A stretch of DNA of 43,386 bases from Marmoricola sp. (lineage in GTDB: Bacteria > Actinomycetota > Actinomycetes > Propionibacteriales > Nocardioidaceae), in NCBI GenBank assembly GCA_025965195.1, contig JAOPXK010000053.1:1-43386 (forward strand). The letters run 5' to 3'. The position numbers and the translations under genes are program-made. Numbering within the stretch: the stretch's first letter is position 1; every line of letters begins with the position of its first letter. The notes under the pieces were generated by a model. It had not been told where the DNA came from. It saw nothing but the letters and a program-made list of their open reading frames with translations, and did not search any database. This document shows positions 4,584-23,868 of the stretch, in pieces.

Positions 4584-4618
4584 CAGGTCATTCTCCAGTG
4601 ACGCTCCAGGTCATTCTC
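4583..4618 (+). repeat. Short direct repeat at the start of the HTH gene
   Basis: CCAGGTCATTCTC occurs at 4583-4595 and 4606-4618, a 23-nt period. It spans the ribosome site and GTG of the minus-strand HTH gene and reaches the cyclase stop codon at 4617-4619. It could be a junction duplication or an autoregulatory site. Confidence 0.5.
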
Positions 4619-5591
4619 AGGCCGGCAGCAGCGGCATGGCCATCGGACGCATCGGCGCGCCAGTCGCCCCACGCAGTTTCAGGCCCGCGCCGATGAAACA
4701 GAATTCATAGAGGTTCTCCTGGGAAAGCTTTTCCAGGTCCACGACCTCCATGATCGTCACGCCGGCTTCTGCAAACAGGTAGGTGTGCACCGGAAGCCAG
4801 TTACCTGGTTCAGTGGACGGAATCTGCTCGAGTGAGAGATTGTCGGCACCGACGACAATGGCGCCGCTCCTGGCCAGGAATTCCGCCCCTTCGCGGGTTA
4901 GTCCGGGCTCATTCCTCATATACGCCGTGGCGTCGTTCCACAAGGTCATCTGACCGGTCCGGACCATCACGACGTCGCCCGGCCTGAGCTGCACATTTTG
5001 AGCCCGAGCCGCGTCACTCAGGTCCTTCTTTCCGATCCCGTAGCTCTCGGGAAGCACGTCGACACCGTGCAGTGCGGCAATGTCGAGAAGGACACCTCTC
5101 GCGATGATCGGCGGCTGCTTGTCGGCTCCGGCGCACATCCAGTGTCGCGCCCCCAGATATTCGTCGGCGTCGAATCCATTCCATATCTTCTTGTGATAGC
5201 CGAAGTGGTTGAGGGTGTCGATGTGCGTTCCGCAATGGGTGTACATCGAGATCGCATCACCCGAGTAGCCCACCAGGTCGTTTTGGTCGGCAAACCCGGT
5301 TGAGTTGTCCACGGCCGTGCCTCGGGGAGTGTTGGTCATGGAGATTTGGTACGGCGGTTGACCTGCTGCCGTAAACGATGGCATGCCCAGGAAATAGTCA
5401 ACGCTCAAATCCAGGGTGTGTCCCGCGTCGGCACGCGAAAGCACTGCGCGCATCGATGCCGGCGTCATCAAGTTGAGCATCCCGATCTCGTCGTCGGTGC
5501 CGAACGGGCTTCTGGTGATCTGCCGGAAGGCAGCGCTGCTCGCCGCAATCTTGGCCGCGGTTTCCGCGTCCACGAACTCTGGTCCACACAT
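4617..5591 (-). CDS. Cyclase family metal-dependent hydrolase (paralog A)
   Basis: A 324-residue member of the cyclase/kynurenine-formamidase-like family (Pfam cyclase, PF04199). Known members are metal-dependent hydrolases that open amides, imides or lactones. The metal-site signature HxGTHxDxxxH appears as H119-CGTH123-I-D125-TLNH129. The ATG at 5591 sits behind a strong AAGGAGG, and longer in-frame extensions lack one. The protein begins MCGPEFVDAET, nearly matching paralog B (12575-13549), which has the same length. It is divergent from the carbon-nitrogen hydrolase gene and shares a 241-nt promoter region carrying the 5738-5763 palindrome. The substrate cannot be read from sequence. Confidence 0.85.
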   Translation of the reverse strand: MCGPEFVDAETAAKIAASSAAFRQITRSPFGTDDEIGMLNLMTPASMRAVLSRADAGHTLDLSVDYFLGMPSFTAAGQPPYQISMTNTPRGTAVDNSTGFADQNDLVGYSGDAISMYTHCGTHIDTLNHFGYHKKIWNGFDADEYLGARHWMCAGADKQPPIIARGVLLDIAALHGVDVLPESYGIGKKDLSDAARAQNVQLRPGDVVMVRTGQMTLWNDATAYMRNEPGLTREGAEFLARSGAIVVGADNLSLEQIPSTEPGNWLPVHTYLFAEAGVTIMEVVDLEKLSQENLYEFCFIGAGLKLRGATGAPMRPMAMPLLPA

Positions 5592-5737
5592 CGGGTCCTC
5601 CTTGGATCGGCTTCGCTGTAGGTCGGCCAGCAACAGGGCCCGGACGCCGCTCCGGACGCCGTTCCGGGCGGCGCTGCCGCCGCCACGGCCCGCCTGAGAG
5701 CGGCTCCCTGAGCCAAATTTCCAACCAACACTGGGCA

Positions 5738-5763
5738 TTGACATGTGGCATGCTACATGTCAA
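5738..5763. promoter_or_regulatory. Palindromic operator in the cyclase/amidase divergent promoter
   Basis: TTGACATGT-N8-ACATGTCAA, with a central GCATGC that is itself palindromic; only one base pair of the 26-bp symmetry is broken. The TTGACA at each end could serve as a -35 in either direction. On the minus strand it reads TGTAGCATGCCACATGTCAA, matching 16 of 20 positions at 20231-20250 beside the GntR gene. It is the probable binding site of the cluster regulator. Confidence 0.75.
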
Positions 5764-5832
5764 CATCATCTCGTTGCATGACGTAGATCACGCTCTGATG
5801 ACGCTCCAGGGCCCTTCGGGATTGAGGTAAAT

Positions 5833-6651
5833 ATGGCCGAGGTATCGGTAGCTGTAGCTCAGTTGGTGGTGGAGCGGGGACGTCCTGATGTCAACCTCCA
5901 GACAGTGACTGACCACCTCGACGGGGCTGCTCGCGAGAACGTGCAACTGATCGTTTTCCCCGAGTGCGCACTGACCGGCTACATGTTCGACTCGCGGGAA
6001 GAGGTCGCGGCGGCCGCGCTGGATCTCGACGGTCCCGAAATCGCCGCGATCATCGAAAAATGCAGCGAGCTGGCGATGTACGTCGTGGTCGGACTCCTGG
6101 AACGTGTCGGCGAAAAGGTCTACAACTCTGCGGCGCTCCTCGGTCCAGAGGGACTGATCGGTGTGTGCCGCAAACGGCACCTTCCGCAAATGGGTGCCGA
6201 CAGGTTCACCGACGAACCAGTCGAGCAGGACCTGCGGCTGTTCGACACCCCGATCGGGCGAATCGGAATCATGATCTGCTACGAGATCAGGTTCCCCGAA
6301 GTAGCGCGGACCATGGCTCTCGGAGGTGCGGACATCATTGCGCTGCCGACGAACTGGCCCGTCGAATCGGCCATTCTCGCGGATCAGTTCACGCGGGTTC
6401 GGGCGGCCGAAAACATGGTGTATCTGCTTGTTTCGAATCGTTGTGATGAAGAGCGGGAAACTCGGTTCCTGGGTTGCAGCCAGATTGTCGATGTCATGGG
6501 TGAGGTCATCGCCCATGCCGGAGTTGACGCGGTGCGTATATCAGCGTCTATCGACCTTGCGCGAGCAAGATCGAAGCACATCGTCCTTAAGGAAGACGAA
6601 GTCCAACTCAGTCCCTGGGATGACCGTCGCCCAGCGACATACCGGGTTTAA
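5833..6651 (+). CDS. Carbon-nitrogen hydrolase (nitrilase superfamily amidase)
   Basis: A 272-residue cytosolic amidase of the nitrilase superfamily, which hydrolyses non-peptide C-N bonds through a covalent thioester. The full catalytic triad is visible: Glu44 in VFPECALTGY, Lys114 in VCRKRHLPQM, and Cys149 in IGIMICYEIRFPE. Length and motifs fit omega-amidase or carbamoylase-type members rather than true nitrilases. The ATG at 5833 follows a GAGGT site. It is the first gene of the rightward cluster, divergent from cyclase A, and is followed 46 nt later by the importer operon. It probably releases ammonia from an imported or ring-opened amide; this role is inferred from context. Confidence 0.88.
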   Translation: MAEVSVAVAQLVVERGRPDVNLQTVTDHLDGAARENVQLIVFPECALTGYMFDSREEVAAAALDLDGPEIAAIIEKCSELAMYVVVGLLERVGEKVYNSAALLGPEGLIGVCRKRHLPQMGADRFTDEPVEQDLRLFDTPIGRIGIMICYEIRFPEVARTMALGGADIIALPTNWPVESAILADQFTRVRAAENMVYLLVSNRCDEERETRFLGCSQIVDVMGEVIAHAGVDAVRISASIDLARARSKHIVLKEDEVQLSPWDDRRPATYRV

Positions 6652-6697
6652 GCGGCAGCGGGCCGCGTTCCGAATTTCCTCGCACTAAGGAGTAACA

Positions 6698-7759
6698 ATG
6701 TCTCGTCCTGTCAACCACCTTTCGAAAATGCGAATGCTCTCCCTGTTCGTCGCACCGGTGCTGGCGGCTACTGCCCTCAGTGGATGTGGCTCGAGCAGCA
6801 GCTCGGGCGGCGCCGGGGGCGGCATCTACCTCGGCCTCAGCAACTCGAGCGTCACGTCCTCGTTCCGCGGCATCATGATCAACTCGTTCAACGCCGAGGC
6901 CAAGACGCTGAAGGCTGCCGGGGAGATCAACAAGTACACCGTGCAGAACGCCGGTGACGATGTCTCGAAGCAGATCCAGCAGATCCACAACATGGTCCAG
7001 TCGGGCGTCAACGTCCTGGTGATCGATGCCCAGTCCTCGACCGGTCTCAACGCCGAGATCGCGGCGGCAGTGGCGAAGGGCGTCACGGTTGTCAGCACGG
7101 ACAACCTGGTGACCACCGACAAGGCGATCAACGTCCAGGTCGACCCGAAGGTCATCGCCGCGAAGACGGCTCAAGGCCTGGTGGACATCATTGGTGGCAA
7201 GGGCAAGGTCGTGATGCTTGAGGGCATCGCAGGCACTCCGGTGAACGAGACCCGAAACCAGCTCGCGAAGGACGTGTTCTCGAAGTACCCCGGCATCAAG
7301 GTGATCGAGGTCAACGTGGACTGGAACCCGGCCACGTCGAAGCAGAAGGTCGCGCAGCTCATCTCGCAGAACCCTGACATCGCCGGAATCTGGGACCAGG
7401 GAGATTCGGCCGGTGGAGCCGCGAATGCCTACATCGATGCGAAGAAGCCGATGCCGCCGATCGTGTTCGACGGAACCACCGACTTCCTGAACATCTGGAA
7501 GAAGAGCATCGCGAGCGGCTACAAGACCGTTGGCGCCCCCCAGCCGCCGGCAGTGGTGGTCGACGCCATCTGGCTCGGGCTCAAGGCGCACAAGGACAAG
7601 TGCACGGCGACGTCGAACCCGATTGCCCTCGACACCCCGCTGCTCACGAACGCCAACATCGACACCGTTTGGAAGGCGGGCATGACCGACGAACCAGGTC
7701 AGTTCGTCAACCCCGTTCCCGTGCCGCGGACTGCGTTGGACAAGTACCTGTCCTGCTAG
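6698..7759 (+). CDS. Ribose-type ABC transporter substrate-binding lipoprotein
   Basis: A 353-residue periplasmic-binding-protein type 1 protein of the RbsB class, which captures a sugar or sugar-like ligand outside the membrane. The N-terminus has a lipoprotein signal: basic residues, a hydrophobic stretch, and lipobox LSGC with Cys30, followed by a Ser/Gly linker. The body shows the RbsB-like pattern ISQNPDIAGIWDQGDSAGGA and a late VFDGTTDFLNIW. The ATG follows AAGGAG. It precedes the ATPase and two permease genes, so the importer is complete. The ligand cannot be deduced; the nearby enzymes point to a polyol, aldonate or lactone-like compound. Confidence 0.9.
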   Translation: MSRPVNHLSKMRMLSLFVAPVLAATALSGCGSSSSSGGAGGGIYLGLSNSSVTSSFRGIMINSFNAEAKTLKAAGEINKYTVQNAGDDVSKQIQQIHNMVQSGVNVLVIDAQSSTGLNAEIAAAVAKGVTVVSTDNLVTTDKAINVQVDPKVIAAKTAQGLVDIIGGKGKVVMLEGIAGTPVNETRNQLAKDVFSKYPGIKVIEVNVDWNPATSKQKVAQLISQNPDIAGIWDQGDSAGGAANAYIDAKKPMPPIVFDGTTDFLNIWKKSIASGYKTVGAPQPPAVVVDAIWLGLKAHKDKCTATSNPIALDTPLLTNANIDTVWKAGMTDEPGQFVNPVPVPRTALDKYLSC

Positions 7760-7838
7760 TCAGCACGTGCATGCCGGGCGGTCGCTGGAGCGGATCACTC
7801 ACTCCAGCGACTGCCCTTCCAACCAGGGAGGCCCCTCG

Positions 7839-9383
7839 ATGACCGATGCATCCGCTACAACACTCGTCCTGCAGAACGTGATGAAGTCCTACGGCAGCAC
7901 CCGGGCGCTGCGTGATGTGTCGCTGTCATTCGAGGCAGGCGAAATCCACACCGTTCTCGGTGAGAACGGCTCCGGTAAGAGCACCTTGGTCAAGATCCTG
8001 TCGGGTATCGCCAGCAAGGACTCCGGTGAGCTCACCCTCGACGGCAGACCGATCACCTGCACATCTCCGACTGTCAGCCGGGCTGACGGCATTGCCACGG
8101 TCTTCCAGGAACTGACGTTCGTCCCCTCCCTGACCTTGGCGGAGAACGTCTTTCTCGGCTCCTACAAGCGGCACTGGACCGGCGTTCTCGACTCGCGCCT
8201 GCTCAATCGGCGCTGTGACGAGCTGATGGATGAGCTCGGTTTCGACCTCGACGGTCGGCAACCGGCAAGTGAGCTCTCCCTGGCACAGCTCCAGCTCGCC
8301 GAGTTTGCGCGTGCTTACGCACGCGAACCGCGGGTCCTGATCCTCGACGAGGCAACCTCAGCGCTGGACCAGCCTGAGGCTGCTGCGCTGATCGGGAATC
8401 TCCGCAAGCTCACGTCTCGGGGCACCACGGTGATCTTCGTGTCTCACCGTCTCGATGAGGTCATCGAGGTCTCCGATCGAATCTCGACCTTGGTCGACGG
8501 GCGGATTGTCTCGACACGTCAAGCCGGAAGCGTGTCACGCGAGAGTCTCCTCAACGAGCTTCTCGGCAACACGATCGACAGCGTTCGCGATGTTGTCCAG
8601 GAGACGGCCGCCATCCTCAAGGAAGCCACCCACGAGGCGAAGACCGTCTTGTTCGAGTGCGAGATCCCAGCCTCCGCGGGGTTCCGTTCCGACATCCGGA
8701 TCACCGCCCGGCGCGGAGAAATAGTCGGCTTGGCCGGCCTGCAAGGCCATGGCCAGAAGCGCGCGCTGCGCATCATCGGCGGCGACCTTCCTGCCAGTGG
8801 CATGCGTCGGACTCTCGCGGATCGTCCGGTCACCGGTCGCAGCCCGCGGGATGCGATTGCGGCCGGGATCTACTACATCCCTGAGGAACGCAAGATCGAG
8901 GGCATCGTCACAGGCCATCCGGTCGCCGCGAACCTGGTGCTGAGCTCGCTGCCCCTGGTCAGTCGCTGGGGCTGGCTGCGCCGGGCACTCGAGCACCGGG
9001 TCGCAGAAGAGATGTGCACCCGACTCGGTGTCCGGTTGGCCAGCGTGCGCCAGCCGATCGACAGTCTCAGCGGCGGCAACCAGCAAAAGGTCGTACTCGG
9101 TCGTGGGCTGTTGTGCGAACCCCAGCTGCTCCTGCTCGACGACTCGATGCGTGGCATCGACGTCCGGGCCAAGAACGAGATCTACCAGCACCTCGTCGAC
9201 TTCACCGAAGCTGGCGCGGCGGTGCTCCTCAACTCGACCGAGATTCCCGAACTGATCCGGCTGTGCTCGAGGGTCATCGTCTTTCACGACCAGGACGTTT
9301 CTGCGGAACTCACCGGTGACGACGTGAACGAGGCCGCTGTACTCCGGGCAATGTTTGGACAGAGGAAGGCACCTGCGGCATGA
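7839..9383 (+). CDS. Ribose-type ABC importer ATPase, two nucleotide-binding domains
   Basis: A 514-residue fused double ATPase of the RbsA/MglA type. NBD1 has a canonical Walker A (LGENGSGKST) and Walker B (VLILDEATSALD). NBD2 has the usual degenerate Walker A (GLAGLQGHGQKRALRIIGGD) and a good signature (LSGGNQQKVVLGRGLL). Two departures from the usual pattern are an NBD1 signature of LSLAQLQLAEFARAY and an NBD2 Walker B of LLLLDDSMRGIDV, where most relatives have LDEPTRGID. The ATG at 7839 follows AGGGAGG, while the longer reading frame lacks a ribosome site. The gene overlaps the first permease as ATGA, implying coupled translation. Confidence 0.9.
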   Translation: MTDASATTLVLQNVMKSYGSTRALRDVSLSFEAGEIHTVLGENGSGKSTLVKILSGIASKDSGELTLDGRPITCTSPTVSRADGIATVFQELTFVPSLTLAENVFLGSYKRHWTGVLDSRLLNRRCDELMDELGFDLDGRQPASELSLAQLQLAEFARAYAREPRVLILDEATSALDQPEAAALIGNLRKLTSRGTTVIFVSHRLDEVIEVSDRISTLVDGRIVSTRQAGSVSRESLLNELLGNTIDSVRDVVQETAAILKEATHEAKTVLFECEIPASAGFRSDIRITARRGEIVGLAGLQGHGQKRALRIIGGDLPASGMRRTLADRPVTGRSPRDAIAAGIYYIPEERKIEGIVTGHPVAANLVLSSLPLVSRWGWLRRALEHRVAEEMCTRLGVRLASVRQPIDSLSGGNQQKVVLGRGLLCEPQLLLLDDSMRGIDVRAKNEIYQHLVDFTEAGAAVLLNSTEIPELIRLCSRVIVFHDQDVSAELTGDDVNEAAVLRAMFGQRKAPAA

Positions 9384-10345
9384 CAAAGCTACGCACCTCG
9401 GGCGGCTATTCGATTCGGCTGAGTGACCTCACCATCTATGTGGTCCTCATCGCCCTGGTCATCATCAATACGGTTCTTCAGCCGAACTTCATCGAACCGC
9501 TGAACTTGTACTACGTGCTCGGTACGGCGATGCCGCTCATCTTTGCGTCTGCCGCCCAGGGCATGGTCATCCTGATCTCGTCGATCGACCTCGCCACCGG
9601 AAGCGTGGTGAGCCTGGTCAACGTGCTGGTGGTGACGCTGATTGGTCGCGGGTCCTTTGTGGCGATCTGCCTGGCAATCCTCGCGGGGATAGCGATGGGG
9701 CTCATCGCCGGACTCATCACCACCTTGCTTCGGCTGCCGGCAATCATCGCCACCCTGGCGCTCTCGTCAGTGTGGGCAGGACTGGCGCTCTACGTCCTCC
9801 CGACGCCCAAGGGCGGGCTGCCTGACTGGTTCCAGACGGTGCTCGCCGGAAGCCGGCCACTGTGGATCCTGGTCGGCATGATCCTGCTCTGGCAATGGTT
9901 CTCCCGAACCAAGCAGGGCAAGCACATGTACGCGATTGGTGCCAACGAGAACGCCGCCTATATGAGTGGTGTGCCCATCTTGAAGACCCGCTTGCTGGTG
10001 TTTGCCATCTCGGGACTCCTGCTCGCCCTGAGTGCGTTGTCCCTTTCGGCCACCACAGGTGGAGGGGACCCGTTGAGCGGAACGGCGTTGACGCTCCAGT
10101 CGATCGCAGCGGCCGTTCTCGGCGGAATCCACTTCAAGGGAGGCTCGGGCTCCATCGTGGGCGCGATAGCCGGCGCGATCGTTCTGGCCCTCATCACCAA
10201 CGTTGTCTATTACACGGGCGCCTCGGCCTTCTATCAGGGCGTGGTCTATGGGCTGCTACTCATTCTTGCCCTGTCGCTGTCCCGTTTGACCGGGGACCGG
10301 AAAGCAACCTTCCGTCGTTCCCTCAAGCCGAGGATGTCCATCTGA
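9380..10345 (+). CDS. Ribose-type ABC importer permease 1 (RbsC-like)
   Basis: A 321-residue polytopic inner-membrane protein of the RbsC/BPD_transp_2 family. It has a short cytoplasmic N-terminus and about eight to ten hydrophobic helices. Recognisable family blocks are GMVILISSIDLATGSVVSL (near residues 60-78) and the C-terminal LGGIHFKGGSGSIVGAIAGA (the G-G-I-x-x-x-G-G-x-G pattern). The start overlaps the ATPase stop and the stop overlaps the next permease start, so all three are translationally linked. With the second permease it probably forms a heterodimeric channel. Confidence 0.9.
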   Translation: MTKLRTSGGYSIRLSDLTIYVVLIALVIINTVLQPNFIEPLNLYYVLGTAMPLIFASAAQGMVILISSIDLATGSVVSLVNVLVVTLIGRGSFVAICLAILAGIAMGLIAGLITTLLRLPAIIATLALSSVWAGLALYVLPTPKGGLPDWFQTVLAGSRPLWILVGMILLWQWFSRTKQGKHMYAIGANENAAYMSGVPILKTRLLVFAISGLLLALSALSLSATTGGGDPLSGTALTLQSIAAAVLGGIHFKGGSGSIVGAIAGAIVLALITNVVYYTGASAFYQGVVYGLLLILALSLSRLTGDRKATFRRSLKPRMSI

Positions 10346-11340
10346 TGACGCAAACGTCCACCACAGCCAGCGAGACCATTCCCGAGCTGAGCGAAGGACC
10401 CGCGTCGAAATGGCGCCTTGCCCTGAACCCGGTCGTCCTGGCCTACGGCGCCGTCTTGTTGCTCGCGGCGGTCGGCGGAATCCTGGATCGGAACTTCCTC
10501 GCGTCCGACCACCTGTTCACGATGGTCAACCTGGGCGCGGTCCTGGGCATCGTCGCGGCGGGGCAGACGATTGTGATCGTCACCGGCGGCATCGACTTGT
10601 CTGTCGCGGGTGTTCTCACGTTCGCCCAGGTCATGACGCCTTTCTGGATCGACGGGCAGAGTGGCCGGTGGCCGCTCATCATCGTCATTCTCGGCATTGC
10701 GCTGCTGATCGGTGCAGTGAATGCGTTCGGCGTCAGTGTGCTGCGAGTGCAGCCAATGATCATGACTCTTGGCGTCGGCGCAGTCATATCTGCGGCGGTG
10801 CTGATTCTCACGAACGGGAGTTCCACGGGCGGACCGCCCAAGTTCCTGGTCACCACCATGACCCGTCAGGGCGCCCTGTCCGGTCTCCTGCTGATGTGGA
10901 TAGTCGTCAGCATCGTCACCTACGTCCTGTTGCACGAGTCGAGCTTCGGCCGCAAGGTCTTCGCCTACGGTGCGAGCGCCCGGACAGCAAGGCTTGCCGG
11001 GCTCCGATCCGGCACCGCGATCTTGGGCACGTACTGCTTCAGCGCGGTTACGGCCGCGATGGCGGGCATCGCTCTCGCTGGATACACCGGCAGCGGTGAC
11101 TTCGGCATCGGCGACACCTACCTGTTCCCGTCGATCGGCGCGGTGGTGATCGGCGGAACATCCATCATGGGTGGCCGCGGGAACTACCTCGGCACGATTG
11201 CCGGGGTGCTGATCCTGACCGTGCTGGAAGCGATCCTGATCGTCTTGAACATTGCAGCAGCCGGCCGCCAGATCGCCGAGGGGCTCGCCATCCTGATCAT
11301 CCTGATCGCCTATGCCCGCGAGCGCAGGTTGCGACAGTAA
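10345..11340 (+). CDS. Ribose-type ABC importer permease 2 (RbsC-like)
   Basis: A 331-residue RbsC-family permease with a 30-residue hydrophilic N-terminus and many hydrophobic helices. Family blocks include AAGQTIVIVTGGIDLSVAGV (about residues 71-90) and IGGTSIMGGRGNYLGTIAGV near 270. I chose the ATG at 10345 because it overlaps the previous TGA; longer in-frame readings would run through the middle of permease 1. It is the last importer gene, followed by 63 nt and then the enolase-superfamily gene. Confidence 0.9.
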   Translation: MTQTSTTASETIPELSEGPASKWRLALNPVVLAYGAVLLLAAVGGILDRNFLASDHLFTMVNLGAVLGIVAAGQTIVIVTGGIDLSVAGVLTFAQVMTPFWIDGQSGRWPLIIVILGIALLIGAVNAFGVSVLRVQPMIMTLGVGAVISAAVLILTNGSSTGGPPKFLVTTMTRQGALSGLLLMWIVVSIVTYVLLHESSFGRKVFAYGASARTARLAGLRSGTAILGTYCFSAVTAAMAGIALAGYTGSGDFGIGDTYLFPSIGAVVIGGTSIMGGRGNYLGTIAGVLILTVLEAILIVLNIAAAGRQIAEGLAILIILIAYARERRLRQ

Positions 11341-11403
11341 TTCGACCCGTCGCACCCACATTGAATTTTTCAGCAACCATCAATTTCAGAATGAAGGTCA
11401 GAA

Positions 11404-13623: not shown

Positions 13624-13740
13624 GTGCAGATCGATACACCACGACCGGGGCTGGTAGACACCAACCCCGGCCGGTTGAAGACAGGGTCATCGGGGTCATC
13701 GGGCCCGACGGGCACCACACCCGGACCAGGTGCGGCATGA
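13624..13740 (+). CDS. Possible 38-residue leader peptide ahead of the ilvD-type gene
   Basis: GTG at 13624 lies behind a strong GGAGG (13614-13618) and opens a short frame starting VQIDTPRPGLVDTNPG and rich in Gly, Pro, Ser and Thr. Its TGA overlaps the ilvD-type start as ATGA. The ilvD-type gene has no ribosome site of its own, so it may depend on translation of this leader. The alternative is an N-terminal extension of the dehydratase from ATG 13611, but that part matches nothing in the family. The peptide itself looks unstructured and may have no role. Confidence 0.35.
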   Translation: MQIDTPRPGLVDTNPGRLKTGSSGSSGPTGTTPGPGAA

Positions 13741-15486: not shown

Positions 15487-15493
15487 GGTCTCG

Positions 15494-16801: not shown

Positions 16802-16859
16802 CGGCACCACTGCCCTCGCAGCACAACCCCGGTTCTGAACAGCGGCTGGAAGGCTCGAA

Positions 16860-17750
16860 GTGACAGGTTTTGCGCGAGGTGTCTGGGGCGTGCTGGCCAC
16901 ACCTTTCCACGGAGAACACGCAGAGGTTGACCGTGAGTCGCTGCGTCGAGCTGTCGAGCTCTATGAATCTGCCGGAGCAGTCGGTGTTGTCGCTCTCGGG
17001 GTCTTCGGTGAAGCTGCCCGTCTGACCGTCCAGGAACGGGCCCTGGTTGTGCACGAGGTGGTCGAGGCGACCAGCTCCTGCGCTGTTGTGGTCGGCTTGA
17101 CGGCGATCGACACGGAGGACGCCTGCCTGGAGGCCGAACAGGCCATGGCCGCCTCGTCAGGTCGAATCAGTGCGGTGATGGTGCAGGCAAACTCCAGCGC
17201 GGTATCGGAGTTGCGCAGTCATCTCGAAGCTGTTCATCGTGCCTGCGACCTGCCGATCGTGCTCCAGGACTACCCCGTTGCGAGCGGTGTGCGTGTCAGC
17301 ACCGATGTCATTGCCGATGCGGCGAGCCTTGACTGCGTGGTGGCTGTCAAGTGCGAGAGTCCACCGACCTCGCCAGCCATCGCGAGCCTGGCGGCGTTGA
17401 CCGATGTGCCGCTGTTCGGTGGTCTGGGTGGCATCGGTCTCCTCGACGAGCTGCAGGCCGGCGCAGCTGGCGCCATGACCGGGTTCTCCTACCCGGAGGC
17501 CCTCGAGAGCGTCATCTCCGCATGGAGTGCTGGGGGATATGAGGCAGCACGCGAGGCGATCCTCCCGTGGCTGCCGCTGATCAACTTTGAAGCTCAAATC
17601 GGAGTGGGGTTGGCGATCCGCAAGGAGAACCTTCGCCGGCGCGGTGTCCTCTCGGACGCTCGTGTCAGGCCGCCCGGTCTTCCGCTTCCGAACGCCCTGC
17701 TCGATCTGGTCGCCGCGCACGGTCGCGGCATCGAAGGAATGGTGGACTGA
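16860..17750 (+). CDS. Dihydrodipicolinate synthase (DapA) family lyase/aldolase
   Basis: A 296-residue class I TIM-barrel enzyme of the DapA/NanA family, which uses a Schiff-base lysine to join or cleave 2-keto acids. The catalytic Lys164 (AVKCESPPT) and Tyr138 (LQDYPVA) are present. The usual GTTGE phosphate/carboxylate loop is altered to GVFGEAA (residues 47-53), which suggests a different substrate from DapA. GTG 16860 follows GGAAGG. A 2-keto-3-deoxy-acid aldolase or dehydratase is the most fitting role next to IlvD/Edd and an enolase-superfamily dehydratase. The stop is immediately followed by the SDR start (TGAATG). Confidence 0.88.
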   Translation: MTGFARGVWGVLATPFHGEHAEVDRESLRRAVELYESAGAVGVVALGVFGEAARLTVQERALVVHEVVEATSSCAVVVGLTAIDTEDACLEAEQAMAASSGRISAVMVQANSSAVSELRSHLEAVHRACDLPIVLQDYPVASGVRVSTDVIADAASLDCVVAVKCESPPTSPAIASLAALTDVPLFGGLGGIGLLDELQAGAAGAMTGFSYPEALESVISAWSAGGYEAAREAILPWLPLINFEAQIGVGLAIRKENLRRRGVLSDARVRPPGLPLPNALLDLVAAHGRGIEGMVD

Positions 17751-18524
17751 ATGGATCTCGGACTAACTGGCAAGGTCGCCCTGGTTGCGGGCGCCACAAG
17801 CGGTCTCGGGCTGGCAACGGCACGAGCGCTCTCCGCCGAGGGCGCGCACGTGGCGTTCTGCGGACGCAGGGAGGAACTCGCCCTCGCCGAGGCCTCCCGC
17901 TGCCAGAATGCGATCGGCGTCGGACTCGACCTGATGGAGGAGGGCTCCTCGGCAGCAGCAACGTCGAGGGTCGTCGAACAACTTGGCCCGATTGACATCC
18001 TGATCCTCAATGGAGGGGGCCCGCCAGCGGCGAATGCCGTCGACGTGGACGCCGAGCAGGGGCGACGTTCGGCCGAGCTCCTGGTTCATTCGCAGGTGAC
18101 CCTGGTTTCCCAATGCCTCGCCGGGATGCGCGAGCGTCAATGGGGCCGGGTACTGGCGATCGGGTCGAGCGCTGTCCAACAGCCAATCCCGACACTTGCC
18201 ACGTCCAGCATGTTCCGTGCTGCACTCGCGGCCTACCTGAAGCTCCTTGCTGAGGACGTCGCTGCAGACGGTGTGACCGTGAACATGGTGCATCCGGGGC
18301 GCATCGCCACAGATCGCATCGAACAGCTGGACAGCCTGCGGGCCGAGAAGGCCGGACAGGCCCTCGATGAGGTACGCCGTGCGTCGGAAGGCACCATTCC
18401 GATGCGGCGCTACGGCCGTCCCGACGAGCTTGCAGCGGCGGTGACGTTCCTCTGCGGAGAGCCCGCGTCGTACATCACTGGCGAGCAGCTTCGTGTCGAC
18501 GGCGGTCTCGTCCGTGGCCTCTGA
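17751..18524 (+). CDS. SDR family protein lacking the catalytic Tyr and Lys
   Basis: A 257-residue short-chain dehydrogenase/reductase fold. The cofactor loop GATSGLG is at 14-20, the structural NGGG is at 87-90 (NNAG in classical members), and the C-terminal MRRYGRPDELAAAVTFLCGE and ITGEQLRVDGG are typical. The active site is unusual: after Ser139-Ser140 the YxxxK motif is replaced by TSSMF (Thr151, Phe155). A divergent SDR subgroup with this change exists to my knowledge. NAD(P) may still bind, but classical hydride transfer is doubtful. The start abuts the upstream stop and the end overlaps the next gene, so it is tightly coupled. Confidence 0.85.
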   Translation: MDLGLTGKVALVAGATSGLGLATARALSAEGAHVAFCGRREELALAEASRCQNAIGVGLDLMEEGSSAAATSRVVEQLGPIDILILNGGGPPAANAVDVDAEQGRRSAELLVHSQVTLVSQCLAGMRERQWGRVLAIGSSAVQQPIPTLATSSMFRAALAAYLKLLAEDVAADGVTVNMVHPGRIATDRIEQLDSLRAEKAGQALDEVRRASEGTIPMRRYGRPDELAAAVTFLCGEPASYITGEQLRVDGGLVRGL

Positions 18525-19323
18525 GAGCCCGAGAGTTACCGAGTTCAGCGAGTCGCAAGTGCAGGCGTGGATCGATCTCACCCAGGAACGCATTGATCCC
18601 CTGCGAGCCGACATCGAGTCAGTCGGAGGACGGTCAGCAGCGGTGACGGGTGAGCTGGTCCCCGATCCGCAAGCTGCTCCGTTCGGGGCGTTCATGATCG
18701 CGTGGCCAGAAGCGGACGGGTCGGGGTTCGCGATCCAGCACCTTGGGAGCGCGGAGTTCTTCCTTCGGATCCTCGAGCTCTGCTACGCGCCGGTGATCTC
18801 GCGCAAGCCCGGCCTGGCCGGCGCCCTGTACGACGGCTCCAGGCTGGAGCTGGCAATCTCCAACGATGTCCTTCAGGTGCAGGCGTTGGGTCCGTCGGGC
18901 CACTACAGCATGATCCGTCATCACGCGTTGATGCATTTCGCGGCCAACAACTGGCTCGCGCAGCCCTCTCGTGGGCTGTGGACACAGATCTACGAAGGCA
19001 TGGCCCAACATCTGATGAGCGACCGAGCTCAGCCACCTGGAGCCGCTGAGCTCGACGAGTGCGAACTCGCAGCCTTTGCGGACTTTCGCCGCCTTGCGCC
19101 CAGGACAGCTGATCCCGACAGCAGGCGAGAGCTGCTCCTCGACGCCGGCGAGTTCAAGAACATCCTTCAATATCAGGCGTATGCAGCCGTCGCGATCGCT
19201 GTCCTTCAGCGCGTGCACGACGGTCTGCCTGCGGACCAGAGGTCCGGCTGGTTCACCAACTTCATGTGCACGTCCTACCTCGAGCCGGACTGTCTGCTCG
19301 AGGAATGGCAACGGGTGCTGTGA
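18493..19323 (+). CDS. Uncharacterised protein, possible inactive gluzincin-like fold
   Basis: About 270-276 residues, cytosolic, with no signal peptide. I do not recognise a family. Residues 143-148 read HHALMH, and 19 residues later comes IYEGMAQHL. This spacing resembles gluzincin metallopeptidases (HExxH, then W-x-x-EGxAxY), but the catalytic Glu of HExxH is Ala, so peptidase activity is not expected. The start is unclear: GTG 18493 overlaps the SDR gene by 32 nt, while GTG 18514 overlaps by 11 nt. It is the last gene of the rightward run and convergent with the GntR gene. It could be a substrate-binding or regulatory partner of the pathway. Confidence 0.7.
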   Translation: MSTAVSSVASESPRVTEFSESQVQAWIDLTQERIDPLRADIESVGGRSAAVTGELVPDPQAAPFGAFMIAWPEADGSGFAIQHLGSAEFFLRILELCYAPVISRKPGLAGALYDGSRLELAISNDVLQVQALGPSGHYSMIRHHALMHFAANNWLAQPSRGLWTQIYEGMAQHLMSDRAQPPGAAELDECELAAFADFRRLAPRTADPDSRRELLLDAGEFKNILQYQAYAAVAIAVLQRVHDGLPADQRSGWFTNFMCTSYLEPDCLLEEWQRVL

Positions 19324-19346
19324 GTCGCTGACCTGTCCGGAATCCG

Positions 19347-20102
19347 CTACAGCCGAGGTGGCGCTTGGGGAGCCGATACGTTGTTCGCGGTGAACATGTC
19401 CAGCCAGGACAGGTCAAAGCGCGGCGCGCTGCCCACGTCGCCGGCCTCTTGGGCGAGGAGCAGGCGCGCAGTCAGCGCGATGTGGTTCTTCATCGCAGCA
19501 GCAGCGCCCGCCGCATCGCCTGCCGTGATCCGCTCGTAGATGTCGAGGTGGTCCTGATAGACGTCCTGGAAGTCTCGCGTGACCCCCACCGTCGAGGCGC
19601 CCCTGACCTGCTGAAGGTCGCGCAGGGTGTCGATGAAGTTCGCGAGCCGCTGGTTTCCCGAGGCCTTCATGATCACGCGGTGAAAGCGCGCGTCGCACTC
19701 GAGGTGGTCCCGCGCGCTGCTCTTGGGATCTTCAGGTCTCAACTCGTTGAGGGCGTCCAGCGCCTGGCGAAGCTGTCGACGGTCGCTTGCCACAAACTGG
19801 TCGGTGGCTCGGAACGTGGCCGGGACCTCCAGGAGAAGTCGCAGCGAGAAGATCTCTTCAAGATCGTGAATGGTCGTCAGCAGGATCCGGATCCCCCGGT
19901 TGCGCTCGAAGCGCACCATGCCCTGATCCGCGAGTTTGATCAGGGCTTCGCGAACGGGGGTTCGCGAGACATGAAGCTCTGCCGCGAAGTGATACATCGA
20001 GTGCAGGCTGCCCGGGATGAGTTCGCCGAGGATGATCGCGTCGCGAATGGACTCGTAGACCTGGTCTGCCAGACTCTCGCGATCTGCCGGGATCTCTTTC
20101 AC
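19347..20102 (-). CDS. GntR family transcriptional regulator, FadR/FCD type
   Basis: A 251-residue ligand-responsive repressor-type regulator. The N-terminal winged helix (about residues 10-75) contains SLADQVYESIRDAIILGELI and VSRTPVREALIKLADQGMV. The C-terminal FCD domain keeps likely metal ligands in DARFHRVI, YQDHLDIY and MKNHIAL, so it probably binds a carboxylate ligand through a metal. I chose GTG 20102, which follows GGGGAAG; the frame opens to GTG 20165, adding 21 residues without a clear ribosome site. It is divergent from the dehydrogenase gene. A palindrome at 20231-20250 matches one at the amidase promoter, so it probably controls itself and the cluster. Confidence 0.9.
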   Translation of the reverse strand: MKEIPADRESLADQVYESIRDAIILGELIPGSLHSMYHFAAELHVSRTPVREALIKLADQGMVRFERNRGIRILLTTIHDLEEIFSLRLLLEVPATFRATDQFVASDRRQLRQALDALNELRPEDPKSSARDHLECDARFHRVIMKASGNQRLANFIDTLRDLQQVRGASTVGVTRDFQDVYQDHLDIYERITAGDAAGAAAAMKNHIALTARLLLAQEAGDVGSAPRFDLSWLDMFTANNVSAPQAPPRL

Positions 20103-20135
20103 TTGACGCTTCCCCGATCTGGTGTGGTCGTTCCA

Positions 20136-20149
20136 TCTGGCGCGCCAGA
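20136..20149. promoter_or_regulatory. 14-bp perfect palindrome upstream of the GntR gene
   Basis: TCTGGCG-CGCCAGA lies 34 nt upstream of the chosen GTG at 20102. It could be an operator or a small mRNA hairpin. If translation starts at GTG 20165 it is coding and may be chance. Confidence 0.35.
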
Positions 20150-20230
20150 CTGGATGGGGCGCCACGCGATGTTACCTGTACGCGCGTGGGCCGCACTCGC
20201 CATTCCGAAGTTGCGCCGACGGTTCCAGAG

Positions 20231-20250
20231 TGTAGCATGCGACGTGTGAC
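20231..20250. promoter_or_regulatory. Second copy of the cluster operator, overlapping a -10 box
   Basis: TGTAGCATGCGACGTGTGAC matches the minus-strand reading of the 5738-5763 site at 16 of 20 positions, including TGTAGCATGC. It contains TAGCAT (20233-20238), which ends 7 nt before GTG 20246, so bound regulator would cover the dehydrogenase promoter. Confidence 0.7.
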
Positions 20251-21217
20251 GTACAAGCGGTCCGACGACGAGGAATTCGCGACACAGCCGGCCGTCGACG
20301 TCGCCCAGCCCGCGCTCTATGTGGGCCCGGAGCCGCGGTCCGCGATCTTGGCCGCGGTCGTCGCTGGTGGTGCGCGAGTCGTCACCGATCCGGCGGAGGC
20401 CGCGGCGGTTATCTGGACCGGCAAGGGCGTGGAAGATCTGATGCGTCTGTTGCACGACGGCATCGGCTGGGTCCAGTTGCCCGACGCAGGCGTGGAGCGG
20501 TGGCTCACCGCAGGGATCCTGGACGGCCGCAGGACGGTCACCTCCGCACGCGGATGCTTTGGTCCCCAGGTTGCCGAGCACGCGATTGCGCTGCTGCTTG
20601 CCGGATCCAGACGACTGCAGTTCGCGGCACGCGCCAACTCATGGCCCGAGGACCGCGTGTGGGGGACGACTCTGCGCGGGCGCGACGTGGTGATCCTCGG
20701 TGGAGGCGATGTCGGTCGGCACCTGGCGCGAATGCTGGTTCCGTTCGGCGCGAGTACGACCGTCGTCACTCGACGCGGGCTCCCGGTGCCCGATGCGACC
20801 AGGACCATCCCCGTGGACCGTCTGCACGAAGGGTTGCTGGATGCGGCGGCGCTGGTCGTTGCTGCGCCGGCGACACCGGAGACGCGACATCTGATCGGTG
20901 AGCGGGAACTGGGGTGCTTGCGGCCCGGCGCCGTACTCGTCAACGTTGCGCGGGGAAGCCTGGTGGATCCCGTGGCGCTGTTGGCCGCACTGGACACCGG
21001 ACAGCTGGGCGCCGCTGCCCTTGATGTGACCGAACCCGAACCTCTCCCAACGGGGCATCCGCTCTGGGAGCACCCACGTGTGTTGATCACACCTCACGTT
21101 GCGAATCCTCCGGAAACCAAGGAGCAGGGGCTCGCCGAGCTTGTCCGAGAGAACACCCTGAGATTCGTCGATCGCCAAGAGCTGTTGGCGGTTGTGGACC
21201 CCACCCGAGGCTACTGA
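20246..21217 (+). CDS. D-isomer-specific 2-hydroxyacid dehydrogenase
   Basis: A 323-residue NAD(P)-dependent oxidoreductase. The Rossmann motif ILGGGDVGRHLARM is near the middle. The catalytic Arg is in NVARGSLVDPVALLAALD, the Glu in ALDVTEPEPLP, and the His in ITPHVANPPE, all as in glyoxylate/hydroxypyruvate reductases. I place the start at GTG 20246 because TAGCAT lies 7 nt upstream, a leaderless layout; ATG 20237 is the alternative. The first gene of the second rightward run, it is followed 20 nt later by the FAH-family gene. Near hydroxypyruvate isomerase and GarR genes, reduction of hydroxypyruvate or glyoxylate is a reasonable guess. Confidence 0.88.
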   Translation: MTYKRSDDEEFATQPAVDVAQPALYVGPEPRSAILAAVVAGGARVVTDPAEAAAVIWTGKGVEDLMRLLHDGIGWVQLPDAGVERWLTAGILDGRRTVTSARGCFGPQVAEHAIALLLAGSRRLQFAARANSWPEDRVWGTTLRGRDVVILGGGDVGRHLARMLVPFGASTTVVTRRGLPVPDATRTIPVDRLHEGLLDAAALVVAAPATPETRHLIGERELGCLRPGAVLVNVARGSLVDPVALLAALDTGQLGAAALDVTEPEPLPTGHPLWEHPRVLITPHVANPPETKEQGLAELVRENTLRFVDRQELLAVVDPTRGY

Positions 21218-21237
21218 CCTCTGAGCAAGGAGAAGAC

Positions 21238-22086
21238 ATGCGTCTGTGCACCGTACGAACACCAACTGGCCCGGAGGCCGCCGTTCAGGTTCCTGGGTAC
21301 GGCGTCGTGCTGACCCGGGATCTCCTCGGACGAGAGTCCGGTGACCTCTTTGACCACCTGGTCAAGGAAGAGCTGGGGCTCATCAGCCAGGCATTGGAGG
21401 CGTGGTCACCTACCGGGCCGGCGATGAAGGACCCGATTTTCGAGGCTCCGTATCGACGTCCACGCAAGATCCTCGGCATCGGGCTCAACTACCGGGCGCA
21501 TGCGGGAGATCTCGGCGCGGACGCTCCTCGAAGCACGCCGGCATCGTTCCTGAAGGGCGACCACACGATCATTGGGCCGGGCGACGACATCCGGCTTCCA
21601 GCAGACGTGGGGCGGGTGACGGCAGAGGCCGAGCTCGGTCTGGTCATCGGTCGGGAGTGCTATCAGGTCAGCGAGGAAGAGGCGATGTCCTACGTCGCGG
21701 GAGTGTGCGCCGTCCTCGACCAGACGGCAGAGGCGGTCCTCCTCGAGAACCCCCGCTACCTGACGCGGGTCAAGAACTATCCAACCTTCTTCTCCTTCGG
21801 GCCGAACATCATCACGATGGACGAAGTGCTCGCCGCGGTCGGCGACCTGGACAAGCTCACCGTCGCAACGATCCACAACTCCGTGGTCCACCGCCAGGAC
21901 GAGGTGGTCGGAATGACGTTCTCACCGGCGGCACTGCTCAGCTTCCACAGTCACGTGATGCCGTTGTACCCGGGCGATATCTTGTCCACGGGCACCCCTG
22001 GTGCGGTGCCGATCACGGCGGGCGACCAGGTCTCCTGCGATCTTGGCGGCGGACTCGAAGTCCTCAGCAACGGAGTCGTCGACTGA
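21238..22086 (+). CDS. Fumarylacetoacetate hydrolase (FAH) family protein
   Basis: A 282-residue metal-dependent hydrolase or decarboxylase of 2-oxo or acylpyruvate compounds. Visible are ILGIGLNYRAHAGDL (about residues 78-92), the metal ligands Glu-x-Glu in VTAEAELGLVIGR, an Asp in CAVLDQTAEAV, the Lys of RVKNYPTFFSFGP, and the C-terminal LYPGDILSTGTPGAV. The equivalent of the common NDVSxRDxQ block is changed to LDQTAEAVLLEN, which suggests an unusual substrate. The ATG follows AAGGAG. In known oxidative aldonate pathways an FAH member hydrolyses a diketo-deoxy acid, which matches the cluster logic but is not proven. Confidence 0.88.
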   Translation: MRLCTVRTPTGPEAAVQVPGYGVVLTRDLLGRESGDLFDHLVKEELGLISQALEAWSPTGPAMKDPIFEAPYRRPRKILGIGLNYRAHAGDLGADAPRSTPASFLKGDHTIIGPGDDIRLPADVGRVTAEAELGLVIGRECYQVSEEEAMSYVAGVCAVLDQTAEAVLLENPRYLTRVKNYPTFFSFGPNIITMDEVLAAVGDLDKLTVATIHNSVVHRQDEVVGMTFSPAALLSFHSHVMPLYPGDILSTGTPGAVPITAGDQVSCDLGGGLEVLSNGVVD

Positions 22087-22142
22087 CGGCGTACGCCGCC
22101 TTAGCCGGACCGGGCACCAACACGATCAACAGGAGGCATGGC

Positions 22143-22967
22143 ATGACGCATTCGCTGCCGTACGCGGTCAACTGCTCCATTCTGTTCACCGAGCTGCCGA
22201 TTCTCGAGCGTCCAGCCGCTGCCAGGAGTGCGGGCTTCGATGCCGTTGAGTTCTGGTGGCCGTTCGCAAGCGTCGTACCGGCTGACACCGAGGTCGACGC
22301 CTTCACCCGAGCAGTCGAGGAGGCGGGCGTGCAGCTCGTCGGTCTCAACTTCGCCGCCGGCGACATGCCTGCGGGGGACCGCGGGTTGTTGTCCCAGCCG
22401 GCGAGGTCGAAGGAGTTCCGCGACAACGTCGCGGTGACCGTGGGGATCGGGGACCAGCTCGGCTGCCGGGTGTTCAACGCGCTCTACGGCAACCGCGTGG
22501 CAGGCGTCGTCGCCGAGGAGCAGGACGAGCTGGCGGCGGAGAACCTGGTCCTCGCCGCCCAGGCCGCGGCGCAGATCGGTGCCCAGGTGGTCATCGAACC
22601 GATCAGTGGCGCGGAGCACTACCCGCTTCTCACCGCTACGGATGCCTTTGCCGTGATCGACCGGGTCCACGCCCGGTCCGGCCTCGACAACCTCGCGCTT
22701 CTCGCCGATCTCTACCATCTGTCCGTGAACGGCGAGGACCTCGACGCGCTCATTGCCGAGCACGTGGACCGGATCGGACACGTGCAGATCGCAGATGCAC
22801 CCGGCCGAAACCAGCCCGGCACCGGCATCCTGGCGATTGACAGCTACCTTCTCAGCCTCGAGCAACACGGGTACGCCGGCTGGGTCGGGCTCGAGTACAA
22901 GCCGCTCGGCGCGAGCTCCGACAGCTTCGGCTGGGTCGCGCCGAATCGCCGCAGCGCAGGACGCTGA
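22143..22967 (+). CDS. hyi: Hydroxypyruvate isomerase (Hyi-like)
   Basis: A 274-residue xylose-isomerase-like TIM barrel. Blocks typical of Hyi are YAVNCSILFTELPILERPAA (residues 6-25), FDAVEFWWPF, the characteristic FNALYGNR near 120, and the metal site around VIEPIS and HVQIADAPGRNQPGTG. The family interconverts hydroxypyruvate and tartronate semialdehyde. ATG 22143 follows AGGAGG; an earlier ATG six nt upstream is too close to the ribosome site. It is followed 22 nt later by the GarR-type reductase, the usual partner that reduces tartronate semialdehyde. No glyoxylate carboligase gene is in the window. Confidence 0.88.
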   Translation: MTHSLPYAVNCSILFTELPILERPAAARSAGFDAVEFWWPFASVVPADTEVDAFTRAVEEAGVQLVGLNFAAGDMPAGDRGLLSQPARSKEFRDNVAVTVGIGDQLGCRVFNALYGNRVAGVVAEEQDELAAENLVLAAQAAAQIGAQVVIEPISGAEHYPLLTATDAFAVIDRVHARSGLDNLALLADLYHLSVNGEDLDALIAEHVDRIGHVQIADAPGRNQPGTGILAIDSYLLSLEQHGYAGWVGLEYKPLGASSDSFGWVAPNRRSAGR

Positions 22968-22989
22968 TCCAATCCCTCAGGAGAGCACG

Positions 22990-23868
22990 ATGACGAAAAT
23001 CGCATTCATTGGCCTTGGCATCATGGGAAGCCCGATGTCGGTCCACCTGGCCCGCGCAGGTCATGAGGTCAGGGGCTTCAACCGGACCCCGGACAAGGTC
23101 CAGCCACTGGTCGACGCAGGAGGCAGGGCCGCGACCTCGATCGCTGATGCCGTGGAAGGCGCCGACGTCGTGGCGTTGATGCTGCCCGACTCACCTGATG
23201 TTCGCGAGGTGCTGGCCGGAGAAGCAGGAGTGTTCGCGCACGCCCGACCCGGCGCATTGATCATCGACTTCTCGAGCATCAGGCCCGACGTCACCGTCGA
23301 ACTGGCGGAGCAGGCGAAGCAGGCTCAGCTGCGCCTCCTTGATGCGCCCGTCTCCGGCGGGCAGGCCGGTGCGCGCGCGGCCGAGCTGTCCATCATGGTT
23401 GGCGGTGCCGAGAAGGACTTCGCGGAGGCCAAGCCGCTCCTCGACGTCGTTGGCAAGACGGTGGTCCACGTCGGGCCGACCGGATCCGGGCAGACCGTCA
23501 AGGCCGCAAACCAGCTGATGGTTGCAGGTCATATCGAGCTGCTCGCCGAGGCCATCGTGTTCCTGGAGGCATACGGCGTCGACACCGCGGCCGCACTGAC
23601 GGTCCTCGCGGGCGGACTGGCCGGCTCGAAGGTGCTCGAGCAGAAGCGGGAGAACATGTTGACCCGATCGTTCGACCCGGGCTTCCGGATCGCCCTGCAC
23701 CACAAGGACATGGGCATAGTCAGCGATGCTGCTCGCGAAGCCGGGGTGATCATCCCGGTCGGTGCTCTGGTCGCCCAGCTGATGGCGTCAGCCAAGGCGT
23801 TGGGCGATGGTGACCTCGACCATTCGGCGCTGCTGAAGGGTGTCGAGCGGCTGTCCGGCCGCAGCTGA
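22990..23868 (+). CDS. 2-hydroxy-3-oxopropionate (tartronate semialdehyde) reductase, beta-hydroxyacid dehydrogenase family
   Basis: A 292-residue NAD(P)-dependent beta-hydroxyacid dehydrogenase. The cofactor motif FIGLGIMGSPMSVHLARAGH is at residues 5-24. The substrate block DAPVSGGQAGARAAELSIMVGG is near 121, and the catalytic Lys lies in GSGQTVKAANQLMVAG near 172. The C-terminal ALHHKDMGIVSDAARE is typical of GarR/GlxR. The ATG follows AGGAG. Paired with Hyi it would convert hydroxypyruvate to D-glycerate via tartronate semialdehyde. This is the last gene of the cluster; a hairpin separates it from the convergent MFS gene. Confidence 0.88.
   Translation: MTKIAFIGLGIMGSPMSVHLARAGHEVRGFNRTPDKVQPLVDAGGRAATSIADAVEGADVVALMLPDSPDVREVLAGEAGVFAHARPGALIIDFSSIRPDVTVELAEQAKQAQLRLLDAPVSGGQAGARAAELSIMVGGAEKDFAEAKPLLDVVGKTVVHVGPTGSGQTVKAANQLMVAGHIELLAEAIVFLEAYGVDTAAALTVLAGGLAGSKVLEQKRENMLTRSFDPGFRIALHHKDMGIVSDAAREAGVIIPVGALVAQLMASAKALGDGDLDHSALLKGVERLSGRS

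Follow-up and report, generated by a model that had tools for sequence, protein, structure and literature searches.

A tRNA-Leu island gene cluster of Marmoricola sp. combining ring and amide hydrolases with sugar-acid enzymes: a candidate GntR-controlled regulon for amides of polyhydroxy acids

What does a bacterium degrade with a gene cluster in which cyclase-type hydrolases and an amidase stand among acid-sugar dehydratases? This question is raised by a stretch of the Marmoricola sp. genome (assembly GCA_025965195.1, contig JAOPXK010000053.1; genome of 3.97 Mb, 98% complete). The window, i.e., the whole stretch of 43,386 nt analysed here, to whose positions all coordinates refer unless another locus is named, carries 18 genes at 4617-23868, defined by open reading frame (ORF) calls together with Pfam and NCBIfam profile searches. 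In order, these are cycA on the minus strand, then nit, a four-gene ribose-type ATP-binding cassette (ABC) importer, enol, cycB, ilvD, larA, dapA, sdr and duf on the plus strand, gntR on the minus strand, and hadh, fah, hyi and garR again on the plus strand. An initial annotation had named most of these families, and the profile searches confirmed each of them (Hyi as a like-protein below its cut-off) and added hadh, gntR and duf. Gene names are used here as family names only, because most equivalog models score well below their cut-offs; among the matches examined, larA (NF052515), garR (TIGR01505) and ilvD (broad subfamily PRK06131) passed their own.

We favor, with a probability of roughly 0.42, the answer that the cluster is one GntR-controlled regulon, carried on a tRNA-Leu island, which would import, open, deamidate, epimerise, dehydrate and cleave a cyclic amide or amide of a polyhydroxy acid. 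The ribose-type importer would take in a polyhydroxylated acid derivative in which the amide is either part of a ring (lactam or imide) or an omega-amide, the cyclases would open the ring, and the carbon-nitrogen (CN) hydrolase would release ammonia to leave a free polyhydroxy acid, aldarate- or aldonate-like. LarA of group 22 would then invert C2 and thereby allow the dehydratases of the enolase family and of the IlvD type to form 2-keto-3-deoxy acids, which the DapA-family lyase, a non-canonical short-chain dehydrogenase/reductase (SDR) and a fumarylacetoacetate-hydrolase-family (FAH) protein would split or remodel to pyruvate and a C3 fragment. The last steps, from hydroxypyruvate or tartronate semialdehyde to D-glycerate, would fall to Hyi, the hydroxyacid dehydrogenase and GarR, and glycerate kinases encoded elsewhere in the genome would take up the product. 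We infer from sequence what the substrate is, in which order the steps run, what each enzyme catalyses and what role the SDR plays; the reading builds on the gene families, a palindrome common to two promoters, the island, a conserved regulator-amidase-cyclase module, a link between LarA group 22 and dehydratases, and the cofactor genes of the genome.

The 18-gene set looks like one regulon, and what links it beyond adjacency is the palindrome found in two divergent promoters. The first copy, a palindromic operator candidate of 26 bp at 5738-5763 in the divergent cycA/nit promoter, has 13-nt arms that are 92% complementary, and a copy of its core ATGTNGCATGCNACAT that differs at two positions lies at 20230-20245, the second operator candidate, in the divergent gntR/hadh region. 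Since the pattern was derived from the first site, only the second site tests it; under a first-order random model (20,000 draws), an equally good match in the 150-bp gntR/hadh region had P = 0.0002. Across the genome, the ATGTNGCATGCNACAT pattern with up to two mismatches occurs at four places, two of them in the divergent promoters of the cluster, compared with 0 for the backward-read control; a third place (contig C43) falls inside an ORF, and the fourth is on contig C195. The half-site pattern TGACATGTNNCATGCTAC, at 5739-5756, gave three matches in the window, two of which are both strands of one palindrome, where 0.08 were expected. Promoter and terminator scans returned fewer sites than in shuffled sequence. 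The regulator itself, an FCD-type GntR protein recognised by profile match (gntR, 19347-20165, minus strand, start uncertain), presumably binds the operator candidate. Together with the close spacing on the plus strand, where the gaps from nit to duf range from -32 to 187 bp, the shared palindrome gives the set a co-regulated appearance and sustains the coherence that the initial annotation had attributed to it.

Part of this arrangement recurs in another phylum. In Shinella sumterensis (locus L103) a GntR regulator that is 44% identical over the alignment and 47% over 231 amino acids, with the DNA-binding part as the most similar portion by eye, is encoded divergently beside a relative of nit (51%), and a cyclase (about 60%) follows some 8 kb further. 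The half-site pattern TGACATGTNNCATGCTAC stands exactly in the Shinella nit promoter (22807-22824 of L103), with one more match at three mismatches, where 0.09 were expected at up to three. Exact copies were found in 4 of 109 loci: one is a short locus belonging to the window, and the other three are Shinella records so closely related that they amount to a single case; the pattern had no match in loci L072 and L073 and one at three mismatches in locus L105. Regulator, operator pattern, amidase and cyclase therefore look like one conserved module, as judged by sequence likeness. The Shinella gntR-nit-lhgO-ABC-cyclase cluster differs in having an ABC importer of another type and, in place of the sugar-acid enzymes, an L-2-hydroxyglutarate oxidase gene directly after nit (545 bits, cut-off 299), an adjacency which suggests that the pair yields a 2-hydroxy acid.

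Both ring-hydrolase candidates, which may open amide or lactone rings, belong to the PF04199 family of cyclase-type metal hydrolases. CycA (4617-5591, minus strand, with its probable start within the ORF beginning at 5744; 91 bits) and CycB (12575-13549, plus strand, within the sugar-acid operon; 89 bits) are 63% identical to each other, and CycB is 63% and 62% identical to Rhizobium and Aminobacter plasmid proteins, respectively. The metal motif HxG[T/A]HxDxxxH is present in both (HCGTHIDTLNH in CycA), and both are 50% identical to the nicotine-operon cyclase of plasmid pAO1, which likewise has Leu-Asn-His at the place of the Pro-x-His of the published motif. We take this pAO1 cyclase to be PKC. 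PKC has been proposed, as a hypothesis, to open 2,3,6-trihydroxypyridine to 2-ketoglutaramate, which the amidase NIT would convert to 2-ketoglutarate (PMC6214936). Clustering of a PF04199 cyclase with a CN-hydrolase is common to our locus and to the nicotine plasmid pAO1 (PKC/NIT). HpoH/HpoI of 2-hydroxypyridine breakdown (PMC6214936) rank with PKC/NIT among the closest known systems, the comparison here covering the pAO1 proteins. As a separate observation, a stretch of Aminobacter plasmid pUSP2 (L073, 2078-18258) holds another cyclase-amidase-importer set, comprising a cyclase relative (62%), a CUT2-like importer, an amidase, an isopropylmalate-dehydrogenase-type enzyme and an aldehyde dehydrogenase.

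The amide hydrolase candidate Nit (5833-6651, plus strand; PF00795, 159 bits) has the expected Glu-Lys-Cys positions, as judged by eye. Its kin in Ponticoccus (46%) and Agrobacterium (43%) stand beside kdgD, an aldehyde dehydrogenase and an HpaI-type aldolase, i.e., aldarate genes. In nicotinate breakdown by Aspergillus, 3-hydroxypiperidine-2,6-dione is converted to hydroxyglutaramate and further to hydroxyglutarate by enzymes of other families (PMC9304392). Considering the oxidase neighbor in Shinella, this fungal parallel and the aldarate genes beside the Nit kin, the sequence context suggests that Nit releases ammonia from the amide of a hydroxylated acid, which then enters acid-sugar breakdown. 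A literature search for an imidase or half-amidase linked with sugar acids found nothing on this gene set. The Shinella module, the aldarate neighbors and the pAO1 relative all favor the coupling of ring and amide hydrolysis with non-phosphorylative acid-sugar enzymes on which the initial annotation had based its substrate; with that substrate read as a nitrogen-bearing or lactam sugar-acid derivative, the proposal is now better supported than before, though unproved.

Between nit and the dehydratases lies the importer, all on the plus strand: a sugar-type substrate-binding protein (6698-7759; PF13407, Peripla_BP_4, 151 bits) whose best solved relatives are CUT2-type binding proteins, an ATPase with two ABC domains (7839-9383; PF00005, two stretches) and two BPD_transp_2 permeases (9380-10345 and 10345-11340; PF02653, 99.5 and 84 bits).

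The epimerisation step is assigned to larA (15494-16801, plus strand), a candidate hydroxyacid C2 epimerase that exceeds the curated cut-off for group 22 of the nickel-pincer cofactor-dependent isomerases (NF052515, 461 bits, cut-off 400). The genes for the cofactor are present in the genome, with LarC at 426 bits, LarE at 268 bits (cut-off 150) and, beside larC, a LarB-like ORF 44% identical to an annotated larB. Residues H98, H163, K176 and H192 are invariant in 17 aligned members of group 22. Lactate racemase has two catalytic His, a cofactor Lys and a Ni-ligand His (H108, H174, K184 and H200). Measured against the published list of these four residues (PMC7583248), the spacing is 65/13/16 in group 22 and 66/10/16 in lactate racemase LarA, a comparison by spacing. 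A PDB search with the protein and with the LarA profile returned no LarA, the lone profile match being a repeat protein, which we take for an artefact. With the racemases and epimerases GntE, MAR and HGR (PMC7583248, PMC11770544) our protein shares the nickel-pincer family and differs in belonging to group 22; for GntE, C2 epimerisation between D-gluconate and D-mannonate is known (PMC7583248; PMC11770544). Neither 'LarAH22' nor 'group 22' is mentioned in the main texts of a set of LarA papers, in which we found no reaction assigned to this group, and a literature search for LarA homologues with sugar-acid dehydratases found nothing on this gene set.

A similarity search for LarA-related loci gave two loci only, from two metagenome-assembled genomes (MAGs). 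For a count of genomic contexts we took 25 of the 35 over-cut-off LarA places besides that of the window, together with the broken LarA gene of genome G077; 16 of the loci are of one genus (g28). An acid-sugar dehydratase, meaning IlvD, the enolase family or GarD/UxaA (the latter with query sequences themselves from the LarA loci L045, L074 and L079), lies in the stretch of about 10 kb on each side of larA in 31 of 36 loci, in 28 of 33 without three hand-picked ones (L077, L078 and L079, fetched after co-located matches had been noticed), and in 0 of 20 other loci, which were fetched for other reasons, span 2.6 to 35 kb and include one of the three Shinella loci. Counted by genus without the hand-picked loci, the dehydratase is found in 7 of 11, those lacking it being g84, g77 and two MAGs. 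In the genus that contributes 16 of the 36 loci, ilvD adjoins larA in 16 of 16.

Three group 22 loci or sets of loci deserve mention in their own right. One genus (L036, L037, L040-L046, L048, L054-L059) has a conserved cluster of a GarD/UxaA-type dehydratase, an FAH-type protein, IlvD, LarA22, a U32-like protein and a GlcD-type oxidase, to which the L045 copy adds an aldehyde dehydrogenase, and there LarA22 may serve an acid-sugar route. On a Rubrobacter plasmid (L074, 12667-16260), LarA22 follows a four-carbon acid sugar kinase and PdxA, a neighborhood which suggests a tetronate epimerase. In the same-family genome G077 (L047, 9997-11176), the LarA22 gene lies in two pieces.

Two unrelated dehydratase candidates flank cycB. 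Enol (11404-12543, plus strand), an enolase-superfamily protein of the mandelate-racemase group (MR_MLE), has the L-talarate/galactarate dehydratase model as its best match, at 211 of 500 bits. IlvD (13737-15449, plus strand, the ORF being open from 13611), of the IlvD/Edd type, reaches 770 bits with PRK06131 (cut-off 539) and 666 with the L-arabinonate dehydratase model (cut-off 882). DapA (16860-17750, plus strand; PF00701, 70 bits), a lyase or dehydratase of the DHDPS family, completes this set; the expected motif residues are present in enol and in DapA (Lys and Tyr positions in the latter), as judged by eye. The nearest solved relatives of IlvD and DapA include L-arabinonate dehydratase and L-2-keto-3-deoxyarabonate dehydratase, respectively, which speaks for a Weimberg-type (Route II) pathway carrying L-arabinonate or a similar pentonate to 2-oxoglutarate through these two proteins. 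We consider such a pathway highly improbable and have rejected it, as none of the 18 genes encodes a member of the aldehyde dehydrogenase family (e.g., 2-oxoglutarate semialdehyde dehydrogenase); the L-arabinonate dehydratase model also stays below its cut-off, and hyi, garR, hadh, the cyclases and the amidase would be left unexplained.

The SDR and FAH proteins raise another alternative, a plain non-phosphorylative Route I/III for an aldonate or its lactone, in which the cyclases would be lactonases, the amidase would be incidental, and SDR and FAH would make and split a 2,4-diketo acid to give pyruvate and glycolate, lactate or glycerate. Route III is described for L-fucose, L-rhamnose and pentoses (PMC6336799, PMC11199699), and the cluster resembles it in that acid-sugar dehydratase, SDR and FAH families are clustered with an ABC importer and a regulator, the dehydratases being of the enolase and IlvD families with motifs present or cut-off passed. 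Kin of enol, SDR and FAH also occur together with LarA in an archaeon (L077; 36, 35 and 49%) and in an actinobacterial genome (L070; 44, 43 and 51%), as this alternative would expect. However, filing the SDR/FAH pair under Route III fails on two counts. In the SDR (17751-18524, plus strand), identified by Pfam and alignment, Ser and Arg replace the Tyr and Lys which three ordinary SDRs in the same alignment keep, so that the initial annotation was right to call it odd, and the Ser-Tyr-Lys triad has been called completely conserved (PMC11199699). In FAH (21238-22086, plus strand; FAA_hydrolase, PF01557, 146 bits), a His-x-x-Asp motif has Asp at the position of the catalytic Glu of the Route III hydrolase (His83/Glu86), as judged by spacing rather than by direct alignment. 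Furthermore, no aldose dehydrogenase is evident, the cluster has LarA, cyclases and an amidase in addition, and amidase and cyclase are the very genes that make up the conserved regulator module. Straight Route III was accordingly lowered after the residue checks, and we regard this alternative as unlikely.

The exchange of Tyr and Lys is common to the SDR kin as well, all four of which (Arthrobacter L080, Rhodococcus L081, actinobacterial L070, archaeal L077) have Ser and Arg. This Ser/Arg clade of archaea and actinobacteria (L070 3086-3919, L077 12955-13740, L080 12903-13676, L081 12912-13685) adjoins enolase-family, FAH, LarA or DapA genes. A literature search for SDRs without Tyr found nothing on this gene set.

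For the lower part of the pathway, the cluster ends with hadh (20186-21217, plus strand, start uncertain; D-2-hydroxyacid dehydrogenase family, PF02826, 156 bits), fah, the hydroxypyruvate-isomerase-like barrel hyi (22143-22967, plus strand; TIGR03234, 275 bits, below the cut-off of 353) and garR, a predicted 2-hydroxy-3-oxopropionate (tartronate semialdehyde) reductase (22990-23868, plus strand; TIGR01505, 365 bits, cut-off 341). An exit of the C3 fragment to glycerate fits, since GarR passes its cut-off and the genome encodes two glycerate kinases. The usual glyoxylate route is hardly what Hyi and GarR serve, because no Gcl passes the cut-off in the whole genome (best 339 of 711 bits), and the classical gcl-hyi-garR route was rejected for this reason. 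The galactarate/glucarate (Gar) pathway is approached through GarR and through enol, which is nearest to L-talarate/galactarate dehydratase though below cut-off; the differences are that no GarL (HpaI-type) aldolase is found among the 18 genes, a DapA-family protein being there instead, and that LarA, cyclases and amidase are additional. Pantothenate, opine (agropine) and iminosugar-lactam substrates were also considered and set aside, as the gene set seemed a poor match for them. Overall, Route III, Gar, Gcl, Weimberg and PKC/NIT each fail in part, in agreement with the initial annotation, which knew of no matching pathway; the kinds of enzymes are known, while their combination is new and fits none of the known pathways tested.

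Several observations weigh against a single pathway. In Shinella, no sugar-acid genes adjoin the amidase-cyclase module; the LarA/enol/SDR/FAH loci L070 and L077 have no cyclase and no nit; the two halves, amide module and sugar-acid module, can therefore live apart. Nit shares only 26% identity with the CN-hydrolase of the pAO1 nicotine cluster and is thus not an ortholog of it, and the 20.9-kb pAO1 stretch differs further in having no sugar-acid genes. Other cyclase kin stand beside coenzyme A (CoA) transferases and similar genes, in CoA-type catabolic contexts, so the cyclase family is broad. Five of the 33 group 22 loci (4 of 11 genera) show no dehydratase, and the ATGTNGCATGCNACAT pattern at up to three mismatches gave 2 matches in the whole window with 1.14 expected, which is weak alone.

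These separable halves are what would be expected if two pathways lay side by side on one island, one for N-heterocycles or amides (gntR, nit and the cyclases) and one for sugar acids (the importer, enol through duf, and hadh through garR), and the dapA-sdr pair occurs in yet another context on Arthrobacter and Rhodococcus plasmids (51/55% and 49/47%). The layout of the window, however, interleaves the two: cycB is flanked by enol (31-bp gap) and ilvD (187-bp gap), the long plus-strand run opens with nit, and the operator candidate also precedes hadh-fah-hyi-garR. We therefore hold two independent pathways to be quite improbable and retain the single GntR-controlled regulon as the preferred reading. 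The new substrate put forward by the initial annotation still has to be worded conditionally, because the modules that make up the set are also found apart from one another.

A protein of no known family adds a hint on the substrate. Duf (18493-19323, plus strand) had no match in Pfam (E up to 0.1) or NCBIfam; no relatives were found outside its own genome in overlapping samples of 394 genomes of the class, 396 of the phylum and 148 near genomes, nor on plasmids, and its low-confidence structure model (mean pLDDT 61.5) gave no fold match at E 0.001. A second copy in the same genome, 41% identical (L067, contig C151 56000-68892), has as neighbors a hydroxyacid dehydrogenase (37%) and an amidohydrolase of the allantoinase/hydantoinase type (233 bits, where the allantoinase cut-off is 358), followed by a 68-aa hyi-like stretch, with ABC-transporter ORFs and, further off, urease-like ORFs, named by eye. 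Finding duf twice next to a hydroxyacid dehydrogenase and to ring-opening hydrolases of amides speaks for a nitrogen-bearing ring as substrate, though two cases in one genome are few. In its most novel form, the reading would be an undescribed pathway in which a cyclic imide or lactam of a polyhydroxy dicarboxylic (aldaric-type) acid undergoes PKC/HpoH-type opening, deamidation, C2 epimerisation by LarA22, dehydration, and processing by an SDR clade that acts without Tyr and Lys, aided by a protein family seen so far in this genome alone; we offer this version tentatively and regard it as doubtful. Novelty in kind is most likely in three parts: the function of LarA22, the SDR clade and the orphan protein.

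The genomic setting suggests how the cluster came to be here. A tRNA-Leu(TAA) gene (3130-3206, plus strand, tRNA call) adjoins it and lies between udg and baxI in 7 of 7 same-genus relatives with a complete stretch; udg matched in 18 same-genus genomes, of which 8 were taken for this comparison and one of these (L091, which ended at a contig end) was left out. By alignment ends, the udg-baxI interval measures about 0.2 kb in two relatives and 2-3 kb in two more; three others have 9-14 kb filled with other genes, and the present genome has 23 kb. Its G+C content is 64%, compared with 68-69% on both flanks. Among the same-genus genomes sampled, a group 22 match above the cut-off is confined to that of the window; close matches to the cyclases were seen in 6 of 148 relatives, a count that includes the genome itself. 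From the variable interval, the G+C dip and these restricted distributions, the cluster is best interpreted as cargo carried at a tRNA-Leu hotspot. A repeat of the tRNA 3' end was not found in the window.

Taken by itself, udg-tRNA-Leu(TAA)-baxI (3092-26026) is a variable site in the genus, ranging from about 0.2 to 23 kb with different cargo in each filled one examined. Between the tRNA and cycA (3860-4600) lie a small ORF and a minus-strand frame with repeated helix-turn-helix-like stretches (by eye), the latter perhaps the remnant of a mobile element. Inside the island, garR is followed by an EmrB-like major facilitator superfamily transporter gene (23906-25360, minus strand), whose membership in the regulon is not clear.

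In conclusion, these findings give LarA group 22 a testable role, as an acid-sugar C2 epimerase that would act beside dehydratases in Actinomycetota, Pseudomonadota and haloarchaea, and they provide a putative regulator-operator pair, common to two phyla, that may be used to find the inducer. They also point to an SDR clade without the usual catalytic pair which co-occurs with enolase-family dehydratases, FAH proteins and LarA. Should the substrate indeed be a cyclic amide of a sugar acid, the cluster would link the ring opening of N-heterocycles to non-phosphorylative sugar catabolism.

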